Below, piece by piece: positions 5,973-52,578 of a DNA stretch of 64,000 bases. The stretch is from contig NZ_JALJYF010000001.1 in NCBI RefSeq assembly GCF_024170465.1, positions 1,364,001 to 1,428,000 of the forward strand, written 5' to 3'. The first letter of the stretch is position 1, and the number at the start of each line of letters is the position of its first letter. Source of the DNA: Natronospira proteinivora (lineage in GTDB: Bacteria; Pseudomonadota; Gammaproteobacteria; Natronospirales; Natronospiraceae). The notes under the pieces are model-generated. The model was not told where the DNA came from, did not search any database, and saw nothing but the letters and a program-made list of their open reading frames with translations. A program made the translations under genes and the position numbers.

Positions 5973-7979
5973 CTAAAGGGCTTCGAGCTCCTTGAGTACC
6001 AGGGCTTCCAAGTGACGACAATAGCGATCCAGATAGTTGAGCCCTTCGGAGGCACTGAACAACCAGGGGTTCATCAGGGTATGACGCAGCAGGAAGATAA
6101 AATTGCTGCTATTTTCACCATCCCCCTCCGACTGGAAGCTATCTGGATCCAACCCCAGCTTCTCGGTAAGTACCTGGCGGGCCTCCGGACTCAAACTGTC
6201 ATGGAATACGTTGGTCCGGGAACCAAAGAATTCCCGCATCTGGGGTGGCTGATCCGGCACCACCCGCAACTGCTCGTAAATCCGCTTGCCAAAACGGTTC
6301 AATGCCGGCGCGCTGTGATTACCCTCCGGGTTCAGGGCAATGCAGATCAGGTTGGTGTCCGGTTCGAAGGGCACCACCAGGCGCACCTTGCTCGCCAGTC
6401 GCTCGGCGGTTTCCTGCAATCGGTCATAAAGGTACTCGGTGCTGTGCACGGTGACCTCGGTGAGCTTGCCGAAACGCTTGTAGTCCAGGGGGAAGACCCG
6501 GTGGGTCACATAGGTAGCGGCCGCCATGGAGCCGGGCTTGGAGCCTTCCAGAATATAGCGACCCAGATTGCGCAGCAGGGTATCGGTGTCGGCTCCCTCC
6601 CCCGCCTCATCAAAGACATAGGCCGCATCCTCGCCCAGCAGTGTGGTGATCTCGCGGTTACGGGCAATGAAGGCCCCCACCCCGAAAGGCAAATACCCCA
6701 GCTTGTGGGGGTCCACGGTGACTGTGTCGGCATGCCGGATGGCGGCAAAGGCCTGATGGACCTCCAGGGAAGGGAAGTACTTGAAACCCCGGGCCACATC
6801 CTCGCGACGACGCAATCCACCGCCGGGCTCACGGAACAGGGCCGCCATATAACCCCCCCAGGCGGCATCCACATGGATGCCGAAGTCCAGGGCCGGCGCC
6901 TTGCGGCGCAAACGTTGGCGAATAGCGACGATGTCATCAATAGGGTCGATGGTGCCGTATTCGGTGGAGCCAAGAATCCCCACCACCGCCAGCACCGGCC
7001 GGCCCTCCTCCGCCAGCCGCGCCAGCTCGGCCTCCAGGGCCTTCGGGTCCAGGCGCATATGATCGGTCACCGGTACCGAAATCAGCTGGGCGGAACCAAA
7101 GCCCATCATCTTCATGGCCTTTTTCCAGCTGTAGTGAGCGGTGAGCGGGACCAGCACCACCGGCGGCTTGAGATCCGGATGGGCCGCATGAAAATCCGCC
7201 TGGCCCAAATGCTCCACCCTTGCCGATTCCAATTTTCGGGTAACACGCTGACGTGTCTGCTTGGGCAGGCCCTGCAAGGCTTCGGCCACCGCCTTTTGCA
7301 GGCGGACTACTGTATCCACATCCAGGTTGAACCAGGGCCATGGATCGGGGTCCTCCAGTGACAGCGGCTTGCGGATAATGGCCGCAGGGTCCAGACCCAG
7401 CTCCGCCATCACGGTTCGCGCCGCCAGAGGATAGTACTTGGCCGACCGCAGGTTCCAGAGCCCCTCATAGTTGGCCACCGTCCCTCCGGACGTCAGGTGT
7501 CCCCAGGCACAGGGACGCTGGGCGGGGTCCGTGTTGAAACCCATCATGTCGGCCAACTGACGTCCCGCTGCCAGCTCCAGGCGAACCGTCACCGGGGCCG
7601 CCTCTTCGGTGACGTTATTGGGGTTGTAGAGCGTGGTCACCAGATGAGCAATCAGGCCCGGCAGCAGCAGATCCGAGGCCATATGGCCGATGTAACGGGG
7701 GTTAAAGAAGGGGGCTGAATTCTTGAGATCCGCCGTCAAGCGGTGGAGCTCAGTCTTCATCCGGTCCACGAATTCCAGATAGCCTTCCGAGTGCAGCGCC
7801 CGGATGGGGATGGGGGGCGTATCCTGGGGATGCAGATTCCGGCGCCAATAGACATGATCCCGAAAGAACTCGAGGATCAGTTTTTCAAATAGTTCGTCAT
7901 TCTCACCGTAAGCCCCGAGAAAAAAGGGGCTAAACAGGGCATCCACTTCCGGGATCTGGTCCTGGCTCATAGGGTTCAC
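5973..7979 (-). CDS. Group II pyridoxal-phosphate decarboxylase, tyrosine/aspartate decarboxylase-like
   Basis: This is a PLP-dependent fold type I enzyme of 668 residues. The cofactor lysine is K426 in DPHKLGYLPFG. A stacking histidine lies in TAHYSWKKAM, and the aspartate holding the ring nitrogen lies in HVDAAWGGYM. Overall it resembles bacterial tyrosine decarboxylase (about 620 residues) and the PanP type of aspartate decarboxylase, and is longer than both. The substrate cannot be assigned from sequence alone. The first codon at 7979 is GTG; the ATG at 7970 (residue 4) is equally possible. It lies 25 bases after hemN on the same strand. Amino acid decarboxylation often supports acid resistance or anaerobic growth, which would suit the FNR neighbourhood. 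Confidence 0.8.
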   Translation of the reverse strand: MNPMSQDQIPEVDALFSPFFLGAYGENDELFEKLILEFFRDHVYWRRNLHPQDTPPIPIRALHSEGYLEFVDRMKTELHRLTADLKNSAPFFNPRYIGHMASDLLLPGLIAHLVTTLYNPNNVTEEAAPVTVRLELAAGRQLADMMGFNTDPAQRPCAWGHLTSGGTVANYEGLWNLRSAKYYPLAARTVMAELGLDPAAIIRKPLSLEDPDPWPWFNLDVDTVVRLQKAVAEALQGLPKQTRQRVTRKLESARVEHLGQADFHAAHPDLKPPVVLVPLTAHYSWKKAMKMMGFGSAQLISVPVTDHMRLDPKALEAELARLAEEGRPVLAVVGILGSTEYGTIDPIDDIVAIRQRLRRKAPALDFGIHVDAAWGGYMAALFREPGGGLRRREDVARGFKYFPSLEVHQAFAAIRHADTVTVDPHKLGYLPFGVGAFIARNREITTLLGEDAAYVFDEAGEGADTDTLLRNLGRYILEGSKPGSMAAATYVTHRVFPLDYKRFGKLTEVTVHSTEYLYDRLQETAERLASKVRLVVPFEPDTNLICIALNPEGNHSAPALNRFGKRIYEQLRVVPDQPPQMREFFGSRTNVFHDSLSPEARQVLTEKLGLDPDSFQSEGDGENSSNFIFLLRHTLMNPWLFSASEGLNYLDRYCRHLEALVLKELEAL

Positions 7980-8004
7980 ACCACTTTATTCTGCTTGAGA
8001 CGTT

Positions 8005-9384
8005 TCAAATGACGCGTGAAAAACGCTGCTGATTCTGCTCGGGACCATTATAGGCATCGAAAAGCATGGCCACATTGCGAAGCAGGTATCGGCCCTTGCG
8101 GCTCACCGTAAACCCATCATTATGAAATTCCAGCAAACCATCGTCTGCCATGCGGCGCAGGCCGGGAGCAGCCGCGGCAAAATAGCTCCAGAAATCCAGA
8201 TGGTGATGGCGGGTCACGGCATCCACATTCACCGTACCATTGCACATGATGGACTGAATGACCTGCTGGCGAATCCGATCGTCTGCCGACAACGCCAGAC
8301 CTCGGGCAATGGGCAGCTGTCCGGCCGCCACTTCGGCTTGCCAATCCCGAATATTGGCGATGTTCTGGCTGAAGCTGTCACCCACCTTGCCGATGGCGCT
8401 GGCGCCGAGGCCAATGAGATCACATTCGGCATGGGTGGAATAGCCCTGGAAGTTCCGCTGCAGCTGCCCCCGGTCCCGGGCTGCGACGAGGGGGTCGCCC
8501 GGACGCGCGAAGTGATCCATGCCGATATGCTCGTAACCGGCCCGCTCCAGTTCCTCCACCGCAGTGGACAGCAGCTCCAGCCTCAGGGCACTGTCCGGCA
8601 GAGCGTCGGCATTCATCAAGCCCTGAATGGGGAATCGCTCAGGGAGATGGGCATAGGCATAGATGGACAGACGATCTGGTCCCAATTCCACTACCTGCTC
8701 CAGGGTTCGGCGAAAACCCGCCACCGTCTGATAAGGCAAACCATAGATCAGATCGAAACTGAGGCTTTCCACCCCGGCACGGCGGGCGGCTTCCACCTGT
8801 TCGGCCACCATGGGCACCGGCTGAATGCGATTCACCGCCTCCTGGACCTTTGGGTCGAAATCCTGAATGCCCATGGACATGCGATCAAAGCCGATGTCGG
8901 CCAGGCCCGCCACATCCTGTGCACTGACCGAGCGGGGATCGATTTCAACGGAAAATTCGCGTTCGCCCCGCTCGGCAAAACGAAAGCCTGCAGACAGGGC
9001 ATCCAGCATGCCGGCCAGGGCATCCACATCGTGGAAAGTTGGGGTCCCACCACCGAGATGCAATTGCCTCAGCGTCCGGTCCCGGTCAAACAGGGCCGAT
9101 TGCAGTTCAATCTCGCGGGCCAGGTGGTCCAGGTAGGCTTCCCCCCGATCCGGTCGCCGGGTGATACTGCGATGACAGGCGCAATACCAGCAAGCCTGCT
9201 CACAGAAAGGCAGATGCACATACACGGAAAGATCTCTCGGAATGGGCTCCTCGTTGGAAGCCCGCACCATCTCCCGGTAAGCTGTGGCATCAAAGGTATT
9301 ACTGAATTGCAGTGCCGTGGGGTAGGAAGTGTAACGTGGGCCACGTCCCTCATAGCGCTGCATCAGGTCCGGATCGAATGACAT
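8005..9384 (-). CDS. hemN: Oxygen-independent coproporphyrinogen III oxidase
   Basis: This is a 459-residue radical-SAM protein. The cluster motif CxxxCxxCxC appears as CEQACWYCAC near residue 63, with HLPF before it, and LHLGGGTPTF near residue 112 is the SAM-binding glycine block. Length and motifs match HemN (about 457 residues), which decarboxylates coproporphyrinogen III to protoporphyrinogen IX without oxygen. HemN-like HutW/HemW proteins are shorter or lack the fourth cysteine. The promoter region carries a TTGAC-N4-GTCAA palindrome, so activation by the nearby FNR is likely. Confidence 0.95.
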   Translation of the reverse strand: MSFDPDLMQRYEGRGPRYTSYPTALQFSNTFDATAYREMVRASNEEPIPRDLSVYVHLPFCEQACWYCACHRSITRRPDRGEAYLDHLAREIELQSALFDRDRTLRQLHLGGGTPTFHDVDALAGMLDALSAGFRFAERGEREFSVEIDPRSVSAQDVAGLADIGFDRMSMGIQDFDPKVQEAVNRIQPVPMVAEQVEAARRAGVESLSFDLIYGLPYQTVAGFRRTLEQVVELGPDRLSIYAYAHLPERFPIQGLMNADALPDSALRLELLSTAVEELERAGYEHIGMDHFARPGDPLVAARDRGQLQRNFQGYSTHAECDLIGLGASAIGKVGDSFSQNIANIRDWQAEVAAGQLPIARGLALSADDRIRQQVIQSIMCNGTVNVDAVTRHHHLDFWSYFAAAAPGLRRMADDGLLEFHNDGFTVSRKGRYLLRNVAMLFDAYNGPEQNQQRFSRVI

Positions 9385-9453
9385 GGGTTTAACACTCCGC
9401 TGTCGTTCCTGGTTTGGATGCGACCAGCTTAAACAGCTGGGTGCTCACGCCCA

Positions 9454-9467
9454 TTGACCTGTGTCAA
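9454..9467. promoter_or_regulatory. FNR/Anr-type box in the hemN-usp divergent promoter
   Basis: TTGACctgtGTCAA is a perfect palindrome and matches the FNR/Anr consensus TTGAT-N4-ATCAA except for the fifth base of each half-site. It is centred about 76 bases upstream of the hemN start and 66 bases upstream of the usp start. It could serve either gene or both. Both gene types are classical FNR/Anr targets, and an FNR gene lies 3.6 kb away. Confidence 0.7.
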
Positions 9468-9526
9468 GCCGGAATCAATATTGCCCCCGAAAAGACCCAT
9501 AGCCCAAAAAAGGCGCCCGAATCACC

Positions 9527-10471
9527 ATGAATGCACAGCACCCCCCGTCAATCCGGCATATCGCCGTCATGCTCTCAGATGAGCTGGACGCTCCTCGGGC
9601 CCTGGAAGAAGCCCTGGGCATTGCCCGGGCCCATGAGGCCAAACTCACCGTACTGGCACCCGCCGGGGATCTATCCGGCGGATTGAACAGTGATGAACTC
9701 AGTGAGGATGTCCGCCGGCGCCTGAAAGCGGAGGTGGAAAAGCGTCGGGATCAACACCTGCAAGGGCTGATGGAAAAGGTCCGCAGCCAGCATGCCGATG
9801 TGGATTGCCAGTTGCTGGCAGGCCGCCATTGGCATCAGGCGGTTCTGAACTGGCAGGAGCAACACCCGGTGGACCTGATGATCAAGGACCTGTCAGTGGA
9901 CAGCCATCGCCGCAGTCATCTGTTTACACCGCTGGATTGGCATTTGCTTCGCGGGACCCGGAGTGCATTACTCATTGTCGGGGCCCAGACACAATCAGGG
10001 CCGGTGGTCGCGGCCGTGGACCTGGTGGCCGCCAGGGATAAACCCCTTAGCCTGGATGGGCAGGTGCTCCGGTGGAGCCGCTGGCTCAGCGACCTGCGGC
10101 AACGCCCTCTGCACGTAGCGCACGCTTTTGAGACGGTGGAAAACCTGCGTCTGCCCTTTGGCTTCGACCGCCTGATGCCGGAATCCGACCTAAAAGCTGT
10201 GCGGGCTGAACACCAGGCCCTGCTCGACCGGGTCTCGGAATCCATTGAAGTACCACCGTCGCGACGCCACCTGCTGGAATCCCCGCCCGGGCGGGCCATT
10301 CCCGAGCTCTGCCGAGAGCAGGCGGCGGATACACTGGTGCTGGGTACCGTTCGGCGAGGCCGCCTGGAACGCATGGTTCTTGGCAGTACCGCCGAATCGA
10401 TCATCCATGCCCTGGACGGAGACCTGCTGGCCATTCCACCCAGCGAGACCGACGCCGGCCAGGAACGATAA
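9527..10471 (+). CDS. Tandem universal stress protein (UspE-like)
   Basis: This 314-residue cytoplasmic protein has two Usp domains, at about residues 8-150 and 160-308. The second keeps an ATP-binding loop of the G-x2-G-x9-G(S/T) type (GTVRRGRLERMVLGST). The first lacks it, as in UspE-type tandem proteins. It is the first gene of a three-gene plus-strand operon: the MFS start is 7 bases after its stop, and the third gene overlaps the second. The FNR box upstream suggests induction under low oxygen. Confidence 0.88.
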   Translation: MNAQHPPSIRHIAVMLSDELDAPRALEEALGIARAHEAKLTVLAPAGDLSGGLNSDELSEDVRRRLKAEVEKRRDQHLQGLMEKVRSQHADVDCQLLAGRHWHQAVLNWQEQHPVDLMIKDLSVDSHRRSHLFTPLDWHLLRGTRSALLIVGAQTQSGPVVAAVDLVAARDKPLSLDGQVLRWSRWLSDLRQRPLHVAHAFETVENLRLPFGFDRLMPESDLKAVRAEHQALLDRVSESIEVPPSRRHLLESPPGRAIPELCREQAADTLVLGTVRRGRLERMVLGSTAESIIHALDGDLLAIPPSETDAGQER

Positions 10472-10478
10472 GAGCTCC

Positions 10479-11732
10479 ATGTTTCGAGATTACCTGAGTC
10501 TGCTCAAACAGCAGCCGGCCTTTCTGCTGTTCGGCCTGCTGGCCGCCTGCCTGTCCAGTTTTGGCCAGACCTTCTATATCGGCCTGTTCAGCGGGGAGAT
10601 CCGTGGAGAATTCCAGCTGAGCCACGGGGAATTCGGGCTCCTTTATTCCCTGGCCACTCTGGGCAGTGGGGTAATTCTGCTCTGGCTGGGCCGCCTGGTG
10701 GATCATTTCGACCTGAGATGGATGACGGGCATGACCCTGGCCGGCTTGGCCATGGCCTGCTTGGCCATGGCCATTGTCACCCACCCCTGGCTGCTGGTCC
10801 TGGTGTTTTTCCTGCTGCGGCTGCTGGGACAAGGCATGATGGGGCATATTGCCATTACCGCAATGGGGCGCTACTTTTCGGCAGCCCGGGGCCGGGCGGT
10901 GAGCATTGCCGCCAGTGGCTTTCCACTGGGGGAAGCGGTTTTCCCAATTCTGGCGGTGGCCCTGATCGCTACCGTGGGCTGGCGGATGAGCTGGGCCATT
11001 GCCGGTATCGCATTGCTCATTCTGGGCATTCCCCTGCTGCTTGCCCTACTCCGGGGTCAGGATCGTCGCCATCGCCTTTGGCAGCTCCGTCAAAGACGCC
11101 AACACCAGGCCGATCGTTTTCGGACCAATCAGGATTGGGCCCTCTCGGATGTGCTCAAAGATCCACGCTTCTGGCTTCTGATGCCGGCCATACTCAGTCC
11201 CGCCTTCCTGGTGACCGGTTTCTTCTTTCACCAGGTAGCACTGGCTGAAAGCAAGGATTGGGCGCTAAGCCTGCTCGCCGGCAGCTTTGTGGCCTTTGCC
11301 GCCTGTCAGCTGGGCGGACTTGCCCTGGCCGGATTCCTTAGTGACCGCCATAATGCGGCCAGCCTGCTCCCCTACTATCTGCTTCCCCTGGCACTGGCAA
11401 TGGGCATCATCTGGCAGGTACAGGCTCCGGTCTGGATACCGGTCTACATGGGCCTGATGGGGCTCGCGGCCGGCGCAAGTGGTACCATCGTGGGGGTATT
11501 GTGGGCGGAACTATATGGCACCTTGCACCTTGGAAGCATCCGCTCGGTCTACACTGCATTGATGGTGTTTTCCACAGCAGTGTCTCCCTGGCTTCTGGGC
11601 CAGCTAATGGATCTCAATGTCAGCCTGGAAGACATTGCCCTCACAAGTCTTGCCTGGATCATCATAATTTCCATAATGATGGCATTACTCCGCCCCAGTC
11701 TGAAAGGCGTCAACCATGAACAGAACTCATGA
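10479..11732 (+). CDS. Major facilitator superfamily transporter
   Basis: Starting at the ATG at 10479 the protein has 417 residues and about 12 hydrophobic membrane segments. There is a central basic loop near residues 195-225, where the two six-helix halves meet. The open frame extends upstream to 10245, but that part overlaps the usp gene in another frame and is not coding. No substrate signature is recognised; the layout resembles the oxalate/formate and monocarboxylate transporter groups. It is cotranscribed with the usp gene and overlaps the next gene by ATGA, so translation of the two is probably coupled. Confidence 0.85.
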   Translation: MFRDYLSLLKQQPAFLLFGLLAACLSSFGQTFYIGLFSGEIRGEFQLSHGEFGLLYSLATLGSGVILLWLGRLVDHFDLRWMTGMTLAGLAMACLAMAIVTHPWLLVLVFFLLRLLGQGMMGHIAITAMGRYFSAARGRAVSIAASGFPLGEAVFPILAVALIATVGWRMSWAIAGIALLILGIPLLLALLRGQDRRHRLWQLRQRRQHQADRFRTNQDWALSDVLKDPRFWLLMPAILSPAFLVTGFFFHQVALAESKDWALSLLAGSFVAFAACQLGGLALAGFLSDRHNAASLLPYYLLPLALAMGIIWQVQAPVWIPVYMGLMGLAAGASGTIVGVLWAELYGTLHLGSIRSVYTALMVFSTAVSPWLLGQLMDLNVSLEDIALTSLAWIIIISIMMALLRPSLKGVNHEQNS

Positions 11733-12367
11733 ATGGTATTAATCGCTGGCAAAAACTTCGCCTGATTCTGGAGCTGGTGATCACCCCCTGGCTACCAGGC
11801 CCCAGGCCGCAGCTTGAAACAGAGAATCTCCCGGCCAACTGGTCTGGTGGTCACACCCTGTCCCCGTGGCATGCGGGCATTCGCCAGCAGGTGGTCAAGG
11901 CATTGCGAGATCAAGCCATCACCGGGCATTTTCCGGTGGAGTCATTGCCCATTGACCGCCTCTTGATACGTCAAGAGCTTGAAGACCAGTGGCCCATTTT
12001 TCGTCTCATGGCAAGGGATTGGCCAGGCCTGCGACGGGGACATCCCCAGCTACCCTGGTATCGTAAATGGATAAAGAAACGTACCCGCCTGAACGCCAAA
12101 CGCAAGCTGGCGAAAAGCCGCCAAATCATGATTTCCCTTCAAAAAGATGGCTTTCAAGCTATAACAAGTGACCCGGTAATGGTTTACCGCTCCCCCAATG
12201 GCTGGGTCAGAAATGGGGGCTCCCACCGACTTGCCATCCTAGCGGCCACCGGCCAGACCCATGCCCCGGTGATTGTGCTGGACCGGGATGCCTGCCTGGC
12301 TGACCCCAAGGTGCCCGATGCTGTAAAAGATCACATTCTGGAACTAGACCCCCTGGAACAACGCTGA
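11729..12367 (+). CDS. Hypothetical protein with ParB/sulfiredoxin-like segment
   Basis: The 212-residue protein overlaps the MFS stop by 4 bases (ATGA). No family is recognised with certainty. The C-terminal part contains NGGSHRLAILAATGQ followed by APVIVLDRD, which resembles the Gly-x-His-Arg loop and following strand of ParB/sulfiredoxin-like nucleotide-binding domains. The middle is very basic (residues 100-135, KKRTRLNAKRK), and the N-terminal third is rich in tryptophan and proline. There is no signal peptide. Its role with a transporter and a stress protein is unknown. Confidence 0.65.
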   Translation: MNGINRWQKLRLILELVITPWLPGPRPQLETENLPANWSGGHTLSPWHAGIRQQVVKALRDQAITGHFPVESLPIDRLLIRQELEDQWPIFRLMARDWPGLRRGHPQLPWYRKWIKKRTRLNAKRKLAKSRQIMISLQKDGFQAITSDPVMVYRSPNGWVRNGGSHRLAILAATGQTHAPVIVLDRDACLADPKVPDAVKDHILELDPLEQR

Positions 12368-12848
12368 GAGGAAAGCGGCTAAAACCCCCACCAAAAACCA
12401 TCGAAGAAATCCCCTAAACGAAGCCCCCAAGGAATCGGTGAATTACTTTTAATAAACACCGGACTCACGTTTTCTCCCTTAGCAAATAGATTCGGTGATT
12501 CAGAGCTTATAACAGCAACCTATGCTTTCAGTTTATTCCAAAAGGCGATAAGCATTGAACATATCTGCTTAACGACTCAGAAGAGCAACACTACGTTGAC
12601 TCAACTCTCTCTAAGAGAGAAAACCGCTCAAAAACAAGAACCAGTTCACACTTTCGACATTCATTCGATGCTGAAATTAACATAACAACCATCCCCTCTT
12701 GTATTCGATAAAATCCCTGCCATCTTGTTCCGCTGTTGCCAACACACAAAAAACAGGCACATCAAAAAAATGGGCAACTTCCGGGGGCCGGCATAAAATC
12801 CGGCAAACATTATCCATTGATGAGAATCTGTTACGGGAGTAATGAGTT
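12368..12848. other. 480-bp AT-richer intergenic region before the TonB receptor
   Basis: No gene is seen. The stretch is clearly richer in A and T than its surroundings, and this shift continues into the receptor gene. A short CTCTCT/AGAGAG hairpin lies near 12605-12620. CATAAAAT at about 12793 could be a -10 element, but no matching -35 hexamer is convincing. Confidence 0.5.
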
Positions 12849-15479
12849 ATGTACTCGCAACTCGTAAGAACAATTCTGCCTGTCACATTGACAGCAACAT
12901 TCATCGGGACAGGAGGAACAGCCACACCCATTCATGCCCAAGATGAGGAAGCGCGGGATCTCGGTCGTGTCATGGTTACTGGCTCTCGTCTCACCCGACT
13001 CGAGATGGAAGAGATTAGCCCAATTACGGTCATTGATCGTGAGCAAATGGAAAACGAAGGAATCCAGACCACTCAGGATCTTTTTGACCGCATCCCTTCC
13101 CTGGGAGCTGGGAGTTTCACTGAGGCCGGAGATTCCAACGATGACACTGGCCCGGATACATCAGCTGCAGCCCTGCGTGGTCTTGAGGCCAATGCGACCC
13201 TGATTCTGATCAACGGCCGCAGAACTGCCAACTCACCATTTGCCAAAGGAATCACAACTTCAGCAGTTGACCTAAACACAATCCCTTTTTCTGCGATTGA
13301 AAGAATTGAAGTGATGCGTGACGGGGCATCGGCTATCTATGGAACTGATGCCATTGCGGGGGTCATCAACATCATTTTGCGCAACAATTTACAGGGTGGT
13401 GAGATACACGCCAGCGCTGGTGTATCCGGCGATGGTGATGCCAATGAAGAGCGAGTCAGTCTGATGTGGGGATCCATGGAAGGCAGCAGCCGACACATCA
13501 CCACTCTGGATTGGTATAACCGTGATTCGGTCTGGATGAAGGATCGTCAATACTCACAGAGTGCCAACAAGATCGGCTTGCACCCCGATGCAATCCAGAC
13601 GCAACCCGACGGAAGCAGCCTTCCGATTGATTTCCGGTCCAGCCTGGGCTCCAATCCTGGTGCATATTTCTTATTAGATGACGAAGAGTGGCAGCCGGAT
13701 CCCGCATGCCCATCGGACCGACTCAACGAAAGCGGAGAATTCTGCCTGTTTGATTTCACGCCTAGCATGCAGCTAAGGCCCGACTCAGAGCGCACCAGCC
13801 TAATTCATCTCACTGAATATGACATCAGCAATACTATGCAACTCTACGGTGAGTTCTGGGCGCACCACCGAAACAGCGAGATCCAGGGTGCCGCCACGCC
13901 TTCCGTGGATGAACTTTTCATCTCGGAAGATCATTCCGGTAATCCCTTCAATCAGGACGTCCGTGCACGATACCGTTTCACCGATGCCGGCCCCCGTGTC
14001 CAGCGGCAAAATCACACTAGCTTGCGGGCGGTAGTTGGCCTCACTGGCCTTTTCTCCAATCCAGACTGGGACTATGACGTCGCAGCTGGTTACACGCGCC
14101 ATGCCGCACAACAGCATGGCATAGGTGGCTTCATCAACATCAATCAGGCCCAGGACGCGCTAGACGAAGACATCTATAACCCCTTCGGCTCCGAGCCGAA
14201 CAGCAGTGATGCAATCGACCACATCGACACCAGAACCACCCGTACCGGTGTATCTCGTCAAGCCTTCCTGGATGCCGGCATAAGTGGACACTTGGGTAAA
14301 CTGCCTGGTGGACCAATTGGCCTTGCCGGGGGTGTCCAGTATCGGGATGAATTTATTCGCGACACGCCCGACTACCAATTCCGCACTGGACAGCTCATCG
14401 GAACCGAGGCTACCCAAGCCGAAGGCGGGCGGGATATAACGTCCCTCTATGTGGAAACAGCGCTTCCAGTAAACGATATGCTGGACATCCAGCTAGCGCT
14501 GCGTCATGACGATTACTCAGACTTCGGGACGACCACAAACCCTCGTATCGGCTTACATTTTCAACCTATGCAACGACTTGCTTTCCGGGCCAGTTACTCG
14601 GAAGGTTTTCGCGCCCCAAGCATACCGGAGATTGGTCTTGGTGCCACGGAAGAATCACCAATTCTGGTTGACACCACCCGGTGCGGGCTGACCCAGGACG
14701 ACCAGGACTGTGGTCCTACTGAATACATCGTCCAATTCGAGGGCAACCCGAACCTGGATCCTGAAACCAGCGAGAGCTTTAACATCGGCATAATTGCTGA
14801 GCCACTGGATTGGATGTCCGTGACAATCGATTACTGGCAGATCAAGCATAAAAATCTAATTGCCAGCGACACCCAATTCATCTTGAACAACGAGGACCAG
14901 TTCCCAGATCGTGTTGTTCGTCTGGAGCCAACCTCTGACGAGCAAGCCCAAGGGATACCCGGCCGCATCGATTTTATCAACGACAGCTTCCTCAATTTCG
15001 GCCAACAGGAAACCGATGGTATTGATCTAGACGTGCGTATGGAATGGGATCAATTTGGTGGAAGGCTCCGCTTAGATAACTCCGCCACTTACGTCCTGAA
15101 CTTCGATCGACAATTGCGAGACGAAGGCCCTGTTTCCGAACTTGCCGGCACGTTTCAGCGCCCCCAGCTCCGTATGATGTCGCGGGTCAACTGGGATGCC
15201 TCGACCTGGGGCTGGACGATTGGCGTTCGACATGTAGGGTCCTATACCGAGGAAAATAATTCCGTCGGCCTCCCAATTGACCGGCGAGTCAATTCCTGGA
15301 CGGTCATGGATGCAAGTGTACGGTGGCAAGCCACCGAATCAATGAATGTATATGCTCGTGCTCACAACTTACTGGACAAGGAAGCGCCCTTTGTAGCAGG
15401 CGATATATCGGGCTATGACCTGAGAAATCATGACCCCAGGGGTCGCTTCATGAGTGTTGGCGCGAGCTACGCTTTCTAA
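12849..15479 (+). CDS. TonB-dependent outer-membrane receptor
   Basis: The protein has 876 residues with a signal peptide (cleavage near IHAQ). A plug domain covers about residues 35-175 (VMVTGSRL, LRGLEANATLILINGRR, DGASAIYGTDAIAGVINIIL), and the large beta-barrel ends in a terminal aromatic residue (SYAF). A DxDxxxE-like or STN sensory extension is absent, so it is a transporter rather than a signalling receptor. The sequence resembles receptors of the Xanthomonas/Caulobacter type that take up sugars or peptides; the substrate cannot be named. Its codon use is less GC-rich than that of its neighbours, which hints at acquisition. No TonB-ExbBD genes lie in the window. Confidence 0.92.
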   Translation: MYSQLVRTILPVTLTATFIGTGGTATPIHAQDEEARDLGRVMVTGSRLTRLEMEEISPITVIDREQMENEGIQTTQDLFDRIPSLGAGSFTEAGDSNDDTGPDTSAAALRGLEANATLILINGRRTANSPFAKGITTSAVDLNTIPFSAIERIEVMRDGASAIYGTDAIAGVINIILRNNLQGGEIHASAGVSGDGDANEERVSLMWGSMEGSSRHITTLDWYNRDSVWMKDRQYSQSANKIGLHPDAIQTQPDGSSLPIDFRSSLGSNPGAYFLLDDEEWQPDPACPSDRLNESGEFCLFDFTPSMQLRPDSERTSLIHLTEYDISNTMQLYGEFWAHHRNSEIQGAATPSVDELFISEDHSGNPFNQDVRARYRFTDAGPRVQRQNHTSLRAVVGLTGLFSNPDWDYDVAAGYTRHAAQQHGIGGFININQAQDALDEDIYNPFGSEPNSSDAIDHIDTRTTRTGVSRQAFLDAGISGHLGKLPGGPIGLAGGVQYRDEFIRDTPDYQFRTGQLIGTEATQAEGGRDITSLYVETALPVNDMLDIQLALRHDDYSDFGTTTNPRIGLHFQPMQRLAFRASYSEGFRAPSIPEIGLGATEESPILVDTTRCGLTQDDQDCGPTEYIVQFEGNPNLDPETSESFNIGIIAEPLDWMSVTIDYWQIKHKNLIASDTQFILNNEDQFPDRVVRLEPTSDEQAQGIPGRIDFINDSFLNFGQQETDGIDLDVRMEWDQFGGRLRLDNSATYVLNFDRQLRDEGPVSELAGTFQRPQLRMMSRVNWDASTWGWTIGVRHVGSYTEENNSVGLPIDRRVNSWTVMDASVRWQATESMNVYARAHNLLDKEAPFVAGDISGYDLRNHDPRGRFMSVGASYAF

Positions 15480-17245: not shown

Positions 17246-18652
17246 GTGCGGACACTGTTCACCATTGGTCTAGCCCTGCTATTGGGCACCTGCTCGTTGC
17301 CTCCATCGCTCTTGGAGCAGGTGCAGACTCGTGGGGAATTGCATGTACTCACCCGGAACAGCCCCACCACCTATTACATCGGGGCGGAAGGACCCACGGG
17401 GCTGGAATATGACCTGGCACAGCGCTTCGCGGATCACCTTGGCGTTGAATTGAGAATCGAAACGCCTGAAGGACTTGCTGCGCTGTTTGATGCGCTGGAA
17501 GACGACCAGGCCCATCTGGCCGCAGCCGGCCTTTCCCGAACTTCAGACCGGGAAAGCCGGGTCCGCTTCTCCAGGCCCTATCACGAAGTCACCCAGCAAT
17601 TGGTCTATCGCTTTGGTGAGGAAGAGCCCCGGGACCTGAGCGACCTGGATGGTCGTTTGGCCGTAGTGGCAGGCAGCAGTCATGAGGCCACTCTGAAACA
17701 TCTCTCAGAAGATTACCCCGGGCTGGACTGGGAATCGGTGGAGGGGGTGGAAAGCGAGGACCTGCTGATCCAGGTTGCCGAGCGGGAGCTTCGTTATACA
17801 GTGGCCGATTCCGTGGACTTGAAAATCAACCGCCGCTACCACCCGGAACTAAGATCTGCTTTCGATCTGGCGGAACCCGACGCCATCGCCTGGGCCTTTC
17901 CACCAAACCAGGATCGTTCCCTGCTCAATGCCGCCAATGCCTTTCTTGAGCGTCTGGAACAACGGGGCACACTGGCCCAGGTTCGGGACCGGCATTTCGG
18001 GCATACGGAACGATTCGACTATGTGGGCACGCGCATCTTCATGCGCCACATCAATAACCGCCTGCCCTCCTACCGCCATTTATTCGAGGAAGCGGCCCAG
18101 CGCAACGAGTTGGACTGGCGGCTACTGGCCGCTATCGGCTACCAGGAGTCTCACTGGAACCCTCAGGCCATCTCACCCACAGGGGTTCGGGGCATTATGA
18201 TGCTGACCCAACGCACCGCCAGCGATCTTGGCGTGGAGAACCGAATTGACCCGGAGCAAAGCATCATGGGTGGTGCCCGCTATTTCCGTCAGGTCCGGGA
18301 ACGCATCCCCGAACACATCCAGGAGCCGGACCGGACCTGGATGGCCTTGGCAGCCTATAACGTAGGTTTCTATCACGTCATGGATGCGCGCATTCTCACT
18401 GAACGCAAGGGCGGAAACCCGGACCGTTGGATGGATGTTCGTGAACATCTGCCCCTGCTCAGTCAACGTCAGTATTACACCCAGACCCGCTATGGCTATG
18501 CCCGAGGCCGGGAGCCGGTGATCTATGTGGGAAATATTCGCCGGTACTACGACATCCTGGAATGGATGATGCCGTTGGAGGACGACATGGAAAGCTTGGT
18601 GGAGACGAGACAGGGCGAGGAAGCTCAAGCGTCTGACGGGGCCGAGGACTAA
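17246..18652 (+). CDS. mltF: Membrane-bound lytic murein transglycosylase F
   Basis: The 468-residue lipoprotein has a lipobox ending LLGTC. The likely start is the GTG at 17246, 7 bases after an AGGAGA site; the TTG directly upstream is possible. Residues about 25-265 form a periplasmic solute-binding-like domain (TYYIGAEGPTGLEYDLAQRF). Residues about 285-410 form the SLT catalytic domain, with the glutamate in GYQESHWNPQA followed by GVRGIMMLT. This is the domain order of MltF, which cleaves peptidoglycan glycan strands to 1,6-anhydro products at the outer membrane. It is convergent with tadA. Confidence 0.94.
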   Translation: MRTLFTIGLALLLGTCSLPPSLLEQVQTRGELHVLTRNSPTTYYIGAEGPTGLEYDLAQRFADHLGVELRIETPEGLAALFDALEDDQAHLAAAGLSRTSDRESRVRFSRPYHEVTQQLVYRFGEEEPRDLSDLDGRLAVVAGSSHEATLKHLSEDYPGLDWESVEGVESEDLLIQVAERELRYTVADSVDLKINRRYHPELRSAFDLAEPDAIAWAFPPNQDRSLLNAANAFLERLEQRGTLAQVRDRHFGHTERFDYVGTRIFMRHINNRLPSYRHLFEEAAQRNELDWRLLAAIGYQESHWNPQAISPTGVRGIMMLTQRTASDLGVENRIDPEQSIMGGARYFRQVRERIPEHIQEPDRTWMALAAYNVGFYHVMDARILTERKGGNPDRWMDVREHLPLLSQRQYYTQTRYGYARGREPVIYVGNIRRYYDILEWMMPLEDDMESLVETRQGEEAQASDGAED

Positions 18653-46416: not shown

Positions 46417-46433
46417 CTGGAACAGGATCAACA

Positions 46434-46649
46434 ATGACGGACAAGAACAAGCGCTACGGCATTCGCATCACCATGCCGGGCAATGACCCCCTGGCCATGC
46501 CCCATTTGCTGGGCGAGGATTGGGAAAGCTTTCGCTGGTATGAAACCGAGGAGGAGAGAAACCGTGCTTTGGAGGACATCCCCCGGGAGCACCAATTCTC
46601 CCGCTCCGGCGATCGGCCCAGCATTCACTGCGAACCCGTGGATCGCTAG
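46434..46649 (+). CDS. Small hypothetical protein
   Basis: The 71-residue protein reads MTDKNKRYGIRITMPGNDPL and is charged and soluble, with an aromatic centre (DWESFRWYETEEER). No family is recognised. A GGA-type site (ggaacaggatcaaca) lies before the ATG. It is convergent with the GGDEF-EAL gene, whose stop is 11 bases away. It could be cotranscribed with the S9 peptidase despite the hairpin. Confidence 0.6.
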   Translation: MTDKNKRYGIRITMPGNDPLAMPHLLGEDWESFRWYETEEERNRALEDIPREHQFSRSGDRPSIHCEPVDR

Positions 46650-46659
46650 CAGAAAGCCG

Positions 46660-49257
46660 CTAGTGAGATTTGACGGGCAAAGCCTGATTGGCTTCCAACA
46701 ATCGTGTCAGTTCTGACGCCCGGCGGGGTCGGCTGAAAAAGTAGCCCTGGGCTTCATCACAGCCCAACTCCGCCAAGATGTCCCGCTGGGCTGCTGTTTC
46801 CACCCCTTCCGCAATCACCTTCAGATTCAGGTTGTGGGCCATGGCCAGAATAGCCTTGACGATAGCGAGTGCACCCTGGTCCTCCGGCAGGCCCATCACG
46901 AAGCTGCGATCGATCTTGAGATAGTGGATGGGAAAATCTTTGAGATAACTCAGGGAGCTGTGACCGGTACCAAAATCATCTACCGCGATATCCATGCCCA
47001 TCTCCGCCACAGATCGCAATACCTCCTGGGCCCGCTCCGGATTTTCCATCATCATGCTCTCGGTGATTTCCATGTGGAGATCCCGGGGTGTCAGCCCATT
47101 GTCAGCAATCAATTTGGCGATTTCCTGAATCAAGCCACGGCGGTTGAACTGCCGGGCCGAGACATTGATTGCCACCCGAACGGGAGGCAATCCCGCCATA
47201 CGCCATCGTGCGGTCTGCTCACAGGCCTCCCGAAACACCCAATGACCCAACTGGCCAATGAGGCCATTGCGTTCCGCCAGGGGGATGAAGGTGCTGGGGG
47301 GAATCACCCCCTGCTCGGGATGATGCCAGCGAACCAATGCCTCGACCCCCGTCATGCGATTATCTACCAGGCTGACACAGGGCTGATAGTGAAGGATGAA
47401 CTGATCCCGTTCCAAGGCGTCCCGCAGAGCCTTGGACATAAGCAGATCTTCGTAGGCACGGGCATTCATTTCGGCCGAGAAAAACTGGGTGGCATTACGC
47501 CCCTTGGCCTTGGCCCTGTACATGGCCGTATCGGCATTTCTCAGCAGGGTATCGGCATCATCCCCATCATTGGGAAAGGCAGAGATGCCGATGCTGCATG
47601 AGCTAACCAGTTCATGACCCTCCACCCACACCGGCTCGGACAATTCGGACAACAAACGGCCGGACAGCTCTGCCAGAGCCTCCATATCAGGTCGACCTTC
47701 GGTCAGGATGGCAAACTCGTCGCCACCCAGCCGGGCCAGCATGTCATTGTCTTTGAGCTGTTCCTCCAGTCGGCGGGCAATCGCGATCAGGAACTGATCA
47801 CCAATGGGATGCCCGAGGGAATCGTTGACCATCTTGAAATGATCCAGATCCAGGAAGATAAGACCCACCAATGTGCCCCGGCGTTTTGCCCTTTCCAGGG
47901 CATGGGTGCACTCCTGTTGGAACAGGGAGCGGTTGGGTAGCCCCGTCAAGGGGTCATAATGGGCGAGCCGCTCCAGCTGGCTTTCGTACTCCTTCTTCTG
48001 GGATATATCGTTGAATACGCATACGAAGTGCCCTGCCTCACCCTCGCTGTCTTTCACCGCACTGACACTCAGCAGAGCCGGATAGACATCGCCTGACTGT
48101 CGTCGATTCCATATCTCGCCCTCCCAGTAACCACCAACCGACAAGGCTTCCCATATAGGTGCTTCCGTCATTGCCTGGCCTTTGTGATCGGAGCATAGGT
48201 GAATACGTTCTCCCATCACTGCATCACGACCCTGCCCGGTAATTCTCGCAAAGGCCTCATTGACAAAGACCACCCGACGATCCTTATCAAGAATAATGAC
48301 GCCTTCCACCGTGTTCTGAAGTGCCTGATAAGCCAAGCGATAACTTTCTTCCGCCTGGCGTTGGCGGGTAACATCCCGATAGATACCAAAAACACCAATC
48401 TGGTTCTCGTCGATCATGACGGGTGCGCCCAGGATGGACATATCCAGCAAGGTACCGTCACGACGAAGGCGCCGGCTTTCTGCATTAACCGGCTGCCCGG
48501 ACAGCACCTGATCGGAAAGGGAGCTGCCTTGCTCATGCATGGATTCAGGGACGATCAGATCATTAATGGTTTCTCCGATGACCTGATCATTTTCGTAGTC
48601 GAACATGTCCAGCCAGGCCTGGTTGGCTTGCAGGATATGATCCTGGGAATCCAGCAGAACAATCCCTTCGGGAGAGGCATGAAACAGTTGGCTGAAAAAG
48701 GCCTGTTGATCCGAGAGGGCCTTTTCCATTTCCTTGAGCGTTGAGATTTCCCGGGTCAGGTCCCGATTGGCCGCCTCCAGCTTCTGATTCTGCTTCGCCA
48801 GCTGTGCCTCCAGCTCGGTGGCCTGACGGCGCAAATGGCTTTCCCGTTCTCGCTCCTGCGTGATATCACGGACATTGGCACGCAGCAGTGGGCCATGCTC
48901 AAAATCCAGGCGGCTAAGGGTCACGTCACATAAGATTCCCCGTCCATCCGCATGCTGATGCAGCCATTCGAATTGATGCTGTCCGTAACGAAGCGCCTGG
49001 CGGATATGCAGCGCGGCCTGGGAACGGGAATCACTGCCATCGGGTTGTTTTGACGGTGACAACTCGCTGGGATGGCAGCCCACCAACTCTTCCGGCCGTC
49101 GGTATCCGAACAAGGACAGGGCGGCAGGACTGCTGGCGACGACCTGATTGGCAGCCAGCACCAGAACGGCATAACTGGAGGCGTCAAACAAGGCCCGATA
49201 GAGCTCGGCATCATCAGGCATGATGGCGGCTGGACGATTCCGTCGTTGACCCATCAA
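46660..49257 (-). CDS. PAS-PAS-PAS-GGDEF-EAL cyclic-di-GMP protein (soluble)
   Basis: The protein has 865 residues and no membrane helix. Three PAS domains lie at about residues 10-130, 185-300 and 305-430, with a coiled coil at 140-185. The GGDEF domain (435-600) has the intact motif ARLGGDEF, but the inhibitory RxxD site reads KDND, so product inhibition may be weak. The EAL domain (about 610-860) has GVEALVRWHHP and the loop VDDFGTGHSSL, and keeps the main metal ligands. It could make or break c-di-GMP. Its start overlaps the stop of the solute-binding protein gene (ATGA). Confidence 0.93.
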   Translation of the reverse strand: MMGQRRNRPAAIMPDDAELYRALFDASSYAVLVLAANQVVASSPAALSLFGYRRPEELVGCHPSELSPSKQPDGSDSRSQAALHIRQALRYGQHQFEWLHQHADGRGILCDVTLSRLDFEHGPLLRANVRDITQERERESHLRRQATELEAQLAKQNQKLEAANRDLTREISTLKEMEKALSDQQAFFSQLFHASPEGIVLLDSQDHILQANQAWLDMFDYENDQVIGETINDLIVPESMHEQGSSLSDQVLSGQPVNAESRRLRRDGTLLDMSILGAPVMIDENQIGVFGIYRDVTRQRQAEESYRLAYQALQNTVEGVIILDKDRRVVFVNEAFARITGQGRDAVMGERIHLCSDHKGQAMTEAPIWEALSVGGYWEGEIWNRRQSGDVYPALLSVSAVKDSEGEAGHFVCVFNDISQKKEYESQLERLAHYDPLTGLPNRSLFQQECTHALERAKRRGTLVGLIFLDLDHFKMVNDSLGHPIGDQFLIAIARRLEEQLKDNDMLARLGGDEFAILTEGRPDMEALAELSGRLLSELSEPVWVEGHELVSSCSIGISAFPNDGDDADTLLRNADTAMYRAKAKGRNATQFFSAEMNARAYEDLLMSKALRDALERDQFILHYQPCVSLVDNRMTGVEALVRWHHPEQGVIPPSTFIPLAERNGLIGQLGHWVFREACEQTARWRMAGLPPVRVAINVSARQFNRRGLIQEIAKLIADNGLTPRDLHMEITESMMMENPERAQEVLRSVAEMGMDIAVDDFGTGHSSLSYLKDFPIHYLKIDRSFVMGLPEDQGALAIVKAILAMAHNLNLKVIAEGVETAAQRDILAELGCDEAQGYFFSRPRRASELTRLLEANQALPVKSH

Positions 49258-50183
49258 TCCCTCTCCTTGCCACTACTTCGCTTATGCAACATGGTACGGT
49301 ACCGGAAAACCGGCTCAAACCAGAGCGCCTCATCATCCAGCGGCGTTTGCTCCGGCAAAAACGGGTTATCCAGCCAAATAATAGGGCGGTCACCAGAAAG
49401 GTATTGTTCTATTGCCATGCTGTGGGCAGGATAGGTTTCAAACAGGGACTGGAAAGCATTTGTTTCAATCGCCCGCTGCAGGCCCAATTCGAGTCTTTCC
49501 GCCAAGGCTCGGTTGTCCGGCGCCACAAAAAAATAAATGGGGGCGGGATAGGCAATCAATGGTCCTGTCCCGGGCACCAGATTGAACCGTTCATAAAGGT
49601 CTTGCTCGGCACCGATTTCCACCACGGCCCGGGGAATGTAATCCACCCGCCCCTTTTCCAGCATCCGGAAAAGCCCCTCATAACTGGCGCTGGTTTCCAC
49701 GGCGATGTCATTGCCTTGTAATATTCGGGTATCCGGCCAATCATGCCCCTGTCCAGGCGAAAAACCCTTCAAATCAGAAAGTCTGGAGACAGAGGCCATC
49801 ATATCCACCTCCTTCTGACGCACCAGTGGCAGACGAATCCCCAGCAGACCCTTGAGTAATGGAACCCGGATCGGGCGCAGCCTGGATTCGCGATCCGGGT
49901 CGGTCATGGACCAGAGCACATCGATATGGCGGCCAGCCAGCATTTCCCGCATGGCGCGGCTCTGATTCATTCGCAAAGGCGCCTCTTGCAACTGGTATTC
50001 ACCAAAATCCTCTTCGGTCTTTTCCAGGGCCAGTTCCAGAACATCCAGGAAATAGGCATCCCGCTCATCGCCCGCCGCGTCCGGCTTAATATATCCGATG
50101 GTCGTGGGCTCGGCTTCGCTCCTGCCTCCAACAAGCAAGGCGAGCCCCATCACAATCGAACCAAGAAGCTTGCCATCAAGCAT
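49254..50183 (-). CDS. Periplasmic solute-binding-like protein (SBP family 3 type)
   Basis: The 309-residue protein has a signal peptide (cleavage near SEAE) and a fold resembling amino acid-type solute-binding proteins. In blocks such as MREMLAGRHIDVLWSMTDPDRESRLRPIRVPLLKG it resembles orphan binding proteins that serve sensors rather than ABC transporters. No permease or ATPase is near. It overlaps both neighbours (8 bases upstream, 4 bases downstream), so all three genes form one coupled unit. I infer that it presents a ligand to the membrane GGDEF-EAL protein. Confidence 0.85.
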   Translation of the reverse strand: MLDGKLLGSIVMGLALLVGGRSEAEPTTIGYIKPDAAGDERDAYFLDVLELALEKTEEDFGEYQLQEAPLRMNQSRAMREMLAGRHIDVLWSMTDPDRESRLRPIRVPLLKGLLGIRLPLVRQKEVDMMASVSRLSDLKGFSPGQGHDWPDTRILQGNDIAVETSASYEGLFRMLEKGRVDYIPRAVVEIGAEQDLYERFNLVPGTGPLIAYPAPIYFFVAPDNRALAERLELGLQRAIETNAFQSLFETYPAHSMAIEQYLSGDRPIIWLDNPFLPEQTPLDDEALWFEPVFRYRTMLHKRSSGKERD

Positions 50184-52578
50184 TTTCCAGGGCCTCCAGC
50201 AGGAAGCGCTCGACCTGTTCTAAGGGCATTGGTCGGGCGAAGTAGTAACCTTGAACCCGTTCACAACCACAGTTTCGGAGAAAGTCCAGCTGAGCCTCTG
50301 TCTCCACCCCTTCCGCCACCACCTCGATCTCCAGATCATGGGCCAGGGAAATAATTGCACGCGTCAACAGCGCATCATCCTCATCCTCGCTGATATCTCG
50401 GACAAAATCCCGGTCGACTTTCAATGTATCGACCTTCATGCGACGCAAGTAGCCCAGAGCGGAATAGCCGGTCCCGAAATCGTCGATTACAAGCGATATC
50501 CCCATATTCTCAAGCCGTGCGAGCAGTTGACGGGTATAACGCAACTCGTCCACAAAAAGCCGTTCGGTCAATTCCAGTTGCAAGGCCTCACCCGACAGAT
50601 GGCTTTGCTGCAGGGCCTGGGAGACCGTGGCCAGAAGGTCACCTTCCACCAGCTGGCGGGAGGAGACATTTACCGCCACCGTCATATCCTGCAATACCGG
50701 GTGGCGTCGCAGGGAAGCCAGGTCCAGCAGGCCTCTCCGAAGCACCCACTCACCGATGGGAATAATCAGGCCATTTTCCTCGGCCAGGGGAATGAACTCA
50801 TCCGGCGGCACCAGTCCACGCTCCGGGTGCCGCCACCGAATCAAGGCTTCCAGGCTTACCGCCTTCCCGGATGACAAACTGATCACGGGCTGGTAATGCA
50901 ACTCGAACTGCCCTTCGGCCAGAGCATGACGAAGATCTCCTTCCAGGGTCAGGCGATGCTGGCTCTCGCGCCCCAGTTCAGACTCGTAAAAACGCAGGGA
51001 ATTTTTCCGGTCTCCCTTCGCCGCATACAGGGCCGTATCCGCCGCCTGCAGCAGTTCCCGGGCCGTCTGACCGGATTGCGGGGCCATGGCCACGCCGGCC
51101 GTTATGGCGACAAAGAAGGTTTCATCGCCCAGGGGAATCGGTTCACGCAGTGCGGCCATCAGGGCTTCAATACGTTTTGCCAAACCGTCCGGGTGCTGAA
51201 TATTCGGCATGATGACCAGAAACTCGTCACTGCCGAATCGAGCCACAATCCAGTCTTCTTCGCTATAGCGAGTAAGCCGATCTCCCACCACCACCAGGAT
51301 TTCGTCACCCACTTCATGACCCAGACTTTCATTGACGTACTTGAAGTTATCCAGGTCCAAAAACAACAGAGCCGTGCTTTGCCCCTCTCCGGCCCGGTGT
51401 ATGGCCCGGGTCAGGTGCTCATAGGCCAACACACGATTGGGCAATTCAGTAAGGGCATCAAAATGGGTATGGAAATCCAGGCGCTCCTGCACGGTTCTCA
51501 GCTGCGTCGTATCCTCAATAAGGGCGATATAGTAGCTTGACTCCCCTTCACCCACGGCCTTCAGGGAAATCCAGGCCCATCGATAATGCTCATCTTCCCG
51601 CCTGAAACGGATTTCACCCTGCCATGTCTCACCGGCCATCACCGCTTCCCAGGGGTCGCCGGCCCCCTCTGCAACGCTCACCCGCTGATGCAACCATCCC
51701 CCTTGTTGGAAGGCAGGCTCACCAAGAACATCGTTGGCCTCACAACCACTGAACTCCACGAACCGTGGGTTCACATACTCCACACAACCATCATGATCCA
51801 TGATGACGACACCGGCCGGTGACTGTTCCAGAGCCTTGGCTAGCAGATTCCGCTCCTTTTCCACCACTTCCCGAGCACCGATGTCAGAACGGATGCGCGT
51901 GACGGCATGATCAAAGGCCTGACTGACATCATCCAGCTCATCCGGTCGAAGTAAGCCTCCTTCACTGCGATTCAAACGCAAGTGCTCACCCAGTTGATCC
52001 AGACGCAAGCCATGGGCAAAGCGGCCCAGGGCCTGGAGGTGCCGGGTAACCAGATAATAGAAGGCGGCGAGTATCAAGAGGGAGACTGAAAAAGTCTTGA
52101 CTCCCTGGGTGACCAGGATGAACAACCCCATGTTCCACAAGCGACCATGAATGGCTTCAAGGTCGGCTGCCACGGTGACTGTCCCCAAGGTCTGGGGATC
52201 ACCTTGCTGACCCTGATAGACAACCGGGATCTGGTGACGCAGCTGATGGGGATAGTCACTGCTCTCCCCCACCGTCATTTCCAGATCCCCTTCAATACGG
52301 ACCTGGCGAACATGGGGCAGCTGCAATATGCCCCGCAACTGCAGCCCCACCTGGGTCTCATCCAGGGCCCAGACGCTACGCCCCAGGCTCTCGGCGAAAC
52401 TGGTATCAGCCTGTTCCAGTCGCTGCTCCAGGCCGCCCAGATCTCGCTGATACTCCCCGTAAAGCTGGTAAACCGTGATGGCCAGCGTAAACACGGAGCT
52501 GATGAGCAGGATCACCAGTACGACCCGCAAACTCAAGCGTCGATGACGCAGCCACTGAGGCAAGGAAATGGGCTTCAC
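50176..52578 (-). CDS. Membrane sensor GGDEF-EAL protein
   Basis: The protein has 800 residues from the GTG at 52578 behind GGGGGAG; the frame is open to 52662. Two membrane helices (about residues 14-38 and 180-205) enclose a periplasmic sensor region. A HAMP-like segment, one PAS domain (about 250-370), GGDEF (380-540) and EAL (550-800) follow. The cyclase motif is altered to ARFGSDEF and the RxxD site is absent. The EAL part reads SLEALIRWRHP and IDDFGTGYSAL, so phosphodiesterase activity is more likely. It is first in an operon with the solute-binding gene and a second GGDEF-EAL gene. Confidence 0.92.
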   Translation of the reverse strand: MKPISLPQWLRHRRLSLRVVLVILLISSVFTLAITVYQLYGEYQRDLGGLEQRLEQADTSFAESLGRSVWALDETQVGLQLRGILQLPHVRQVRIEGDLEMTVGESSDYPHQLRHQIPVVYQGQQGDPQTLGTVTVAADLEAIHGRLWNMGLFILVTQGVKTFSVSLLILAAFYYLVTRHLQALGRFAHGLRLDQLGEHLRLNRSEGGLLRPDELDDVSQAFDHAVTRIRSDIGAREVVEKERNLLAKALEQSPAGVVIMDHDGCVEYVNPRFVEFSGCEANDVLGEPAFQQGGWLHQRVSVAEGAGDPWEAVMAGETWQGEIRFRREDEHYRWAWISLKAVGEGESSYYIALIEDTTQLRTVQERLDFHTHFDALTELPNRVLAYEHLTRAIHRAGEGQSTALLFLDLDNFKYVNESLGHEVGDEILVVVGDRLTRYSEEDWIVARFGSDEFLVIMPNIQHPDGLAKRIEALMAALREPIPLGDETFFVAITAGVAMAPQSGQTARELLQAADTALYAAKGDRKNSLRFYESELGRESQHRLTLEGDLRHALAEGQFELHYQPVISLSSGKAVSLEALIRWRHPERGLVPPDEFIPLAEENGLIIPIGEWVLRRGLLDLASLRRHPVLQDMTVAVNVSSRQLVEGDLLATVSQALQQSHLSGEALQLELTERLFVDELRYTRQLLARLENMGISLVIDDFGTGYSALGYLRRMKVDTLKVDRDFVRDISEDEDDALLTRAIISLAHDLEIEVVAEGVETEAQLDFLRNCGCERVQGYYFARPMPLEQVERFLLEALENA

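Follow-up and report, generated by a model that had tools for sequence, protein, structure and literature searches.

A CHASE5 c-di-GMP enzyme and its co-encoded, transporter-free binding protein probably form a two-piece receptor in Natronospira proteinivora

YfiR regulates the membrane-bound cyclase YfiN via a small periplasmic domain (CHASE8), and NspS of Vibrio cholerae is PotD-like. According to PMC8079147, NspS binds polyamines, is encoded upstream of mbaA, and acts with MbaA, a membrane GGDEF-EAL protein whose altered motif (SGDEF) still allows some c-di-GMP to be made. In ScrABC of Vibrio parahaemolyticus, the periplasmic binding protein ScrB, when liganded, drives ScrC, a GGDEF-EAL protein, toward phosphodiesterase output, and the scr operon also includes ScrA, a signal-making enzyme (PMC11315295). 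AruS of Pseudomonas aeruginosa is a CHASE5 sensor with a binding-protein gene nearby; its output is a histidine kinase, and PMC11113362 reports no two-hybrid signal between its CHASE5 domain and the binding protein PA4985, which is of the SBP_bac_8 family and whose gene lies at a distance of a few genes rather than immediately adjacent. No paper stating a general link between CHASE5 and binding proteins was found in a literature search that covered sources other than subscription journals.

The locus described here lies in a stretch of 64,000 nucleotides of the Natronospira proteinivora genome, the whole of which is referred to as the window, and resembles each of these systems in part. As in NspS-MbaA, a periplasmic binding protein is encoded beside a membrane GGDEF-EAL protein with an altered motif, but the binding protein is predicted to be of the amino-acid type and its gene lies downstream, not upstream, of that for the enzyme (gene A). 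The combination of binding protein and GGDEF-EAL protein is shared with ScrABC, although no counterpart of scrA was seen at the window locus. YfiR-YfiN likewise joins a membrane c-di-GMP enzyme bearing a small periplasmic domain to an adjacent gene for a periplasmic protein, but the fold of YfiR differs from the binding-protein fold here; AruS shares the CHASE5 domain and the nearby binding-protein gene. In gene content the locus corresponds to a binding-protein-coupled c-di-GMP receptor, with a binding-protein gene beside a membrane GGDEF-EAL gene and no transporter, and by analogy the pair most likely works like NspS-MbaA or ScrB-ScrC.

Three overlapping minus-strand open reading frames (ORFs) were confirmed between positions 46660 and 52578 of the window (Table 1), with the start of the binding-protein gene within the final codons of gene A. 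The first-pass annotation had given overlaps of 8 and 4 bases: the 8-nt overlap between gene A and the binding-protein gene stands, whereas that between the binding-protein gene and gene C amounts to 4 nt only with the TTG start at 49257 and shrinks to 1 nt (TGATG) with the ATG at 49254. Chance is exceeded not by gene overlap as such, which is not rare, but by the recurrence of the gene A/binding-protein overlap in all nine loci that carry the pair. On the plus strand, an ORF of ~75 aa (about 46430-46660) converges on gene C, and a similar-sized ORF occupies the corresponding position in each of the other two Natronospira genomes. An upstream MltD-like gene was considered as a hint of a cell-wall ligand and dropped, since it adjoins the pair only in Natronospira (sequence search). 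The 2.9-Mb genome contains 37 GGDEF matches versus four BPD_transp_1 domains; signaling enzymes are many and such ABC importers few.

Table 1. Features of the locus, in window coordinates
Feature	Coordinates	Strand	Remarks
Gene A, membrane CHASE5-PAS-GGDEF(GSDEF)-EAL protein	50176..52578	-	800 aa, GTG start
CHASE5 periplasmic domain, gene A aa 42-147	52138..52455	-	Pfam PF17149; flanked by two predicted long helices
PAS domain, gene A aa 250-361	51496..51831	-	Pfam
GGDEF domain, gene A	51001..51465	-	motif GSDEF at 51220-51234
EAL domain, gene A aa 548-783	50230..50937	-	catalytic motifs intact
Overlap of gene A stop and binding-protein start	50176..50183	-	8 nt, ATGCTTGA
Periplasmic binding protein gene	49254..50183	-	309 aa; hydrophobic N-terminal helix, then predicted type II binding-protein fold
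Gene C, 3xPAS-GGDEF-EAL	46660..49254	-	864 aa (ATG at 49254) or 865 aa (TTG at 49257)
GGDEF domain, gene C	47494..47964	-	intact GGDEF; I-site K-D-N-D
EAL domain, gene C	46726..47433	-	catalytic motifs intact

LapD-type receptors have a degenerate, inactive EAL domain, and gene A, with its EAL motifs intact, was rejected as a member of that type. Its product had been described as a membrane protein with an altered GSDEF motif; this is correct, and the periplasmic domain proved to be CHASE5, matched at 65.7 bits versus the Pfam cut-off of 27. Hydrolysis of c-di-GMP looks like the activity under selection in gene A, because all eight orthologues compared have intact EAL residues, whereas their GGDEF motif varies (GSDEF in three, GGDEF in two, GNDEF in two, and SGDEF in one) and the I-site is missing from every one. 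By analogy, the GSDEF domain would be either regulatory or a weak cyclase like the SGDEF domain of MbaA, whose residual activity makes a cyclase role conceivable for gene A as well.

As a single sequence, the binding protein had no Pfam, NCBIfam, or phmmer-PDB match, including none to SBP_bac_3 (PF00497) at E ≤ 1, so a family-level profile and the fold were needed to place it. SBP_bac_3 was matched by 39 of 72 members of the binding-protein family at E ≤ 0.1. The AlphaFold2 model is confident (mean pLDDT 93.7), its best matches being 2o1m_A in VIA-align (Z 17.3, rmsd 2.9, 214 aligned) and 5org_A in Foldseek (E 1.3e-10), and on this fold match the predicted structure belongs to the polar amino-acid group of type II periplasmic binding proteins. 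The N-terminal helix is hydrophobic in sequence. The gene is single copy in the window's genome, and homologues on plasmid records are annotated as “transporter substrate-binding domain-containing protein” or “hypothetical protein”. In a profile alignment to AncQR, an Asp of the solved protein, which presumably holds the amino group of the ligand, faces a variable column beside the invariant Arg185, and the ligand may be other than a plain alpha-amino acid. Elsewhere in the window, an SBP_bac_3 domain (17345-18004, +) occurs inside a 472-aa open frame, which looks like an MltF-type lytic transglycosylase; outside the window but in the same genome, SBP_bac_3 and GGDEF share one 501-aa open frame (G000:C2:372632-373927, -), a fused binding protein/c-di-GMP enzyme.

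The conserved unit is the pair of gene A and the binding protein. A binding-protein gene that overlaps the end of a preceding CHASE5-GGDEF-EAL gene is present at nine loci, namely those of the window, two other Natronospira genomes (G001 and G002), three Ectothiorhodospiraceae bins, two Aquisalimonas bins, and Methylonatrum kenyense. Gene models were greedy ORF calls rather than annotations; the CHASE5 gene of one pair locus (L017) is split into two ORFs, the binding protein of L018 was read by hand from its start codon (the greedy call being antisense), and L012 and L015, on the same contig of G001, were counted once. In three further loci (L051, L058, and L091), a binding protein of the same family lies upstream of a 511- to 514-aa histidine kinase with overlapping ends. 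CHASE5, HisKA, and HATPase_c were found by Pfam in all three kinases, CHASE5 exceeding the Pfam cut-off in two and reaching 22.7 bits versus 27 in L091. Gene order is thus opposite between the GGDEF-EAL and histidine kinase groups. In a quick tree, from which the fragment L086 was left out, the binding proteins paired with GGDEF-EAL, nine in all, cluster together (SH-aLRT 99), and the three paired with kinases make up a separate cluster (93) among unpaired relatives. Among the best 80 of 350 homologue loci found, 70 lack a CHASE5 gene within the stretch examined, and most members of the binding-protein family therefore act either without CHASE5 or with a CHASE5 protein encoded elsewhere. G226 has a CHASE5-GGDEF-EAL gene with no adjacent binding-protein gene and a binding-protein homologue on another contig. 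L046 (candidate division KSB1, 6861-13236) has the gene for a window-type binding protein between two large genes, of 1,012 and 817 aa, each of which it overlaps slightly.

The association was also approached from the CHASE5 side. CHASE5 was matched in 42 of 369 class genomes searched, at 51 places over the cut-off, of which 48 were taken; two Natronospira places were deliberately excluded, and the G261:C27 region missed its CHASE5 place. These 48 stretches hold 50 CHASE5-like ORFs, and a binding-protein gene, counted as adjacent within 600 nt, adjoins 37 of them, mostly abutting upstream, versus 0/20 CHASE4 genes (Fisher p 3.5e-9); the positives include a 64-aa fragment from a broken gene (L170) and a divergent hit (L180). 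Pfam alone detected SBP_bac_3 at E ≤ 0.01 in 20 of 49 upstream neighbors of CHASE5 genes, and in a Pfam scan of the CHASE4 neighbors SBP_bac_3 was not among the matches listed (25 of 81 families). Used as a profile, the CHASE5 partners match amino-acid binding proteins from end to end (AncQR, E 1.2e-23). Beside three (L196, L198, and L202) of the 13 CHASE5 genes with no adjacent match lies a Pfam periplasmic-binding-protein family. The outputs of 47 CHASE5 proteins comprise HisKA (37), GGDEF (7), and EAL (6).

For a held-out test the profiles were frozen and applied to a draw of the phylum, where 66 places passed, three of them already used and 63 new; 40 of the new places, those with the best E-values apart from the skipped G481:C324 and G394:C13, were chosen before their neighbors had been seen. 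An adjacent binding-protein gene was present for 22 of the 40 CHASE5 genes versus 0/20 CHASE8 genes, and one of the 18 with no match (L255) has a neighbor that is SBP_bac_3 by Pfam. The controls were all 20 CHASE4 genes over the cut-off and the best 20 of 43 CHASE8 genes, and for both the binding-protein profile was the one trained on the first CHASE5 set. As a positive control, 17 of the 20 CHASE8 genes (L282-L301) have an upstream gene of 170 to 204 aa, and six of six scanned neighbors are YfiR/HmsC-like; as YfiR is the known partner of YfiN, examining neighbors does identify a genuine periplasmic partner.

Distance matrices of CHASE5 and the binding protein are correlated over 45 pairs (r 0.58, with 0/5000 permutations as high), in part through shared ancestry. 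The correlation is seen in the 35 class pairs alone (r 0.44, 7/5000 permutations as high) and in the 10 window-type pairs (r 0.87, 0/5000). Of the eight class genomes that encode a window-type binding protein, six also have CHASE5, counting G363, where the CHASE5 match is weak, and G261, where the binding-protein match is weak, versus 36 of 361 others (p 3.7e-5; 369 genomes). Furthermore, the window-type and general CHASE5 partners are related to each other (hhalign probability 97.65, E 2.6e-12, 197 columns).

We infer from these data that the pair is probably a two-piece receptor. The periplasmic binding protein would capture a small ligand and dock on the CHASE5 domain of the co-encoded gene A protein; docking would change the output of the PAS-GSDEF-EAL portion in the cytoplasm, most likely the rate at which the EAL domain hydrolyzes c-di-GMP. 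The ligand-sensing c-di-GMP module proposed by the first-pass annotation, with the binding protein signaling to the membrane phosphodiesterase, thus gains support from the conserved transporter-free pair, the recurrent CHASE5/binding-protein adjacency, and the intact EAL domain, all of them features of sequence and gene order. CHASE5 might instead sense a small molecule or the state of the envelope directly, the binding protein only buffering or delivering the ligand with no docking. The predicted structure of the region bears on this possibility: residues 1 to 250 of gene A, modeled with AlphaFold2 from 10 sequences (mean pLDDT 79.4), are predicted to fold into a small alpha/beta domain between two long helices. 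In Foldseek an integrative model of WalK ranks first, the LapD orthologue CdgS9 provides the closest solved single domain with its periplasmic domain (4u64; weak, E 4.8e-3), and small-molecule chemoreceptor domains are also weakly near. These fold matches are weak evidence, and with the CHASE5 genes that lack an adjacent binding-protein gene they lean toward direct sensing. The periplasmic domain of LapD, however, itself works with a periplasmic protein, LapG, and adjacency in both CHASE5 sets versus none in either control speaks against direct sensing, which is considered unlikely.

Another alternative is that the trio is the working unit, with c-di-GMP synthesis by gene C set against hydrolysis by gene A and both governed by the same ligand. 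Gene order is kept in the three Natronospira genomes, in all of which the GGDEF motif of gene C is intact, but gene C is absent from the other six of the nine pair loci, so that the pair is conserved and the trio is not, except at the level of the genus. Pfam finds three PAS domains, GGDEF, and EAL in gene C and calls no periplasmic domain. Its EAL residues are likewise intact, and the direction of its activity is for that reason not readable from sequence; the opposite activity ascribed to the soluble partner has no sign in the sequence, where both sets of motifs are intact. Gene C had further been credited with an intact GGDEF and a lost RxxD site. The GGDEF is indeed intact and the I-site Arg is a Lys in the window (KDND), but the loss is a change of the window's lineage, because the other two Natronospira genomes keep the Arg (RSSD and RESD). 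As a conserved unit the trio was rejected, its role as a working unit within Natronospira is rather improbable, and gene C is, by its domain content, a cytoplasmic PAS-GGDEF-EAL enzyme that joined the operon in Natronospira only.

The absence of a transporter, as first described, is borne out. No transporter gene lies nearby, and none of the four BPD_transp_1 permease domains of the genome is near the locus. Motif searches of the same 80 homologue loci found an ABC-ATPase-like ORF within 4 kb of the binding-protein gene in two and within 2 kb in none; a search in relatives thus gave no sign of an adjoining ABC transporter within 2 kb, and with the permeases of its own genome also distant the protein was not classed among ABC transporter binding proteins. 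That it serves a transporter encoded elsewhere and merely hitchhikes in the operon after gene A is very unlikely, since against its predicted polar amino-acid fold and the 70 homologues apart from any CHASE5 gene stand these transporter results and a CHASE5 pairing that recurs with two output types.

Beyond the docking receptor of the window, adjacency and co-inheritance statistics tip the balance slightly toward a wider reading, in which CHASE5 would generally dock dedicated transporter-free binding proteins and serve as a portable input to kinases and c-di-GMP enzymes, the window family, which has no Pfam model of its own, having been recruited at least twice. The negative result for AruS and PA4985 limits such a rule and does not break it, because PA4985 belongs to another family and its gene is not adjacent. 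To our knowledge, the signals of most bacterial sensor proteins are unknown. The CHASE5/binding-protein pairing recurs in many bacteria and suggests a likely function for this sensor domain, which is poorly understood. Should the input to CHASE5 be a binding protein and not a small molecule, screening CHASE5 domains in isolation for ligands would fail, and the target to screen would be the binding protein encoded next to them. If true, this would provide a testable input for dozens of orphan kinases and c-di-GMP enzymes.
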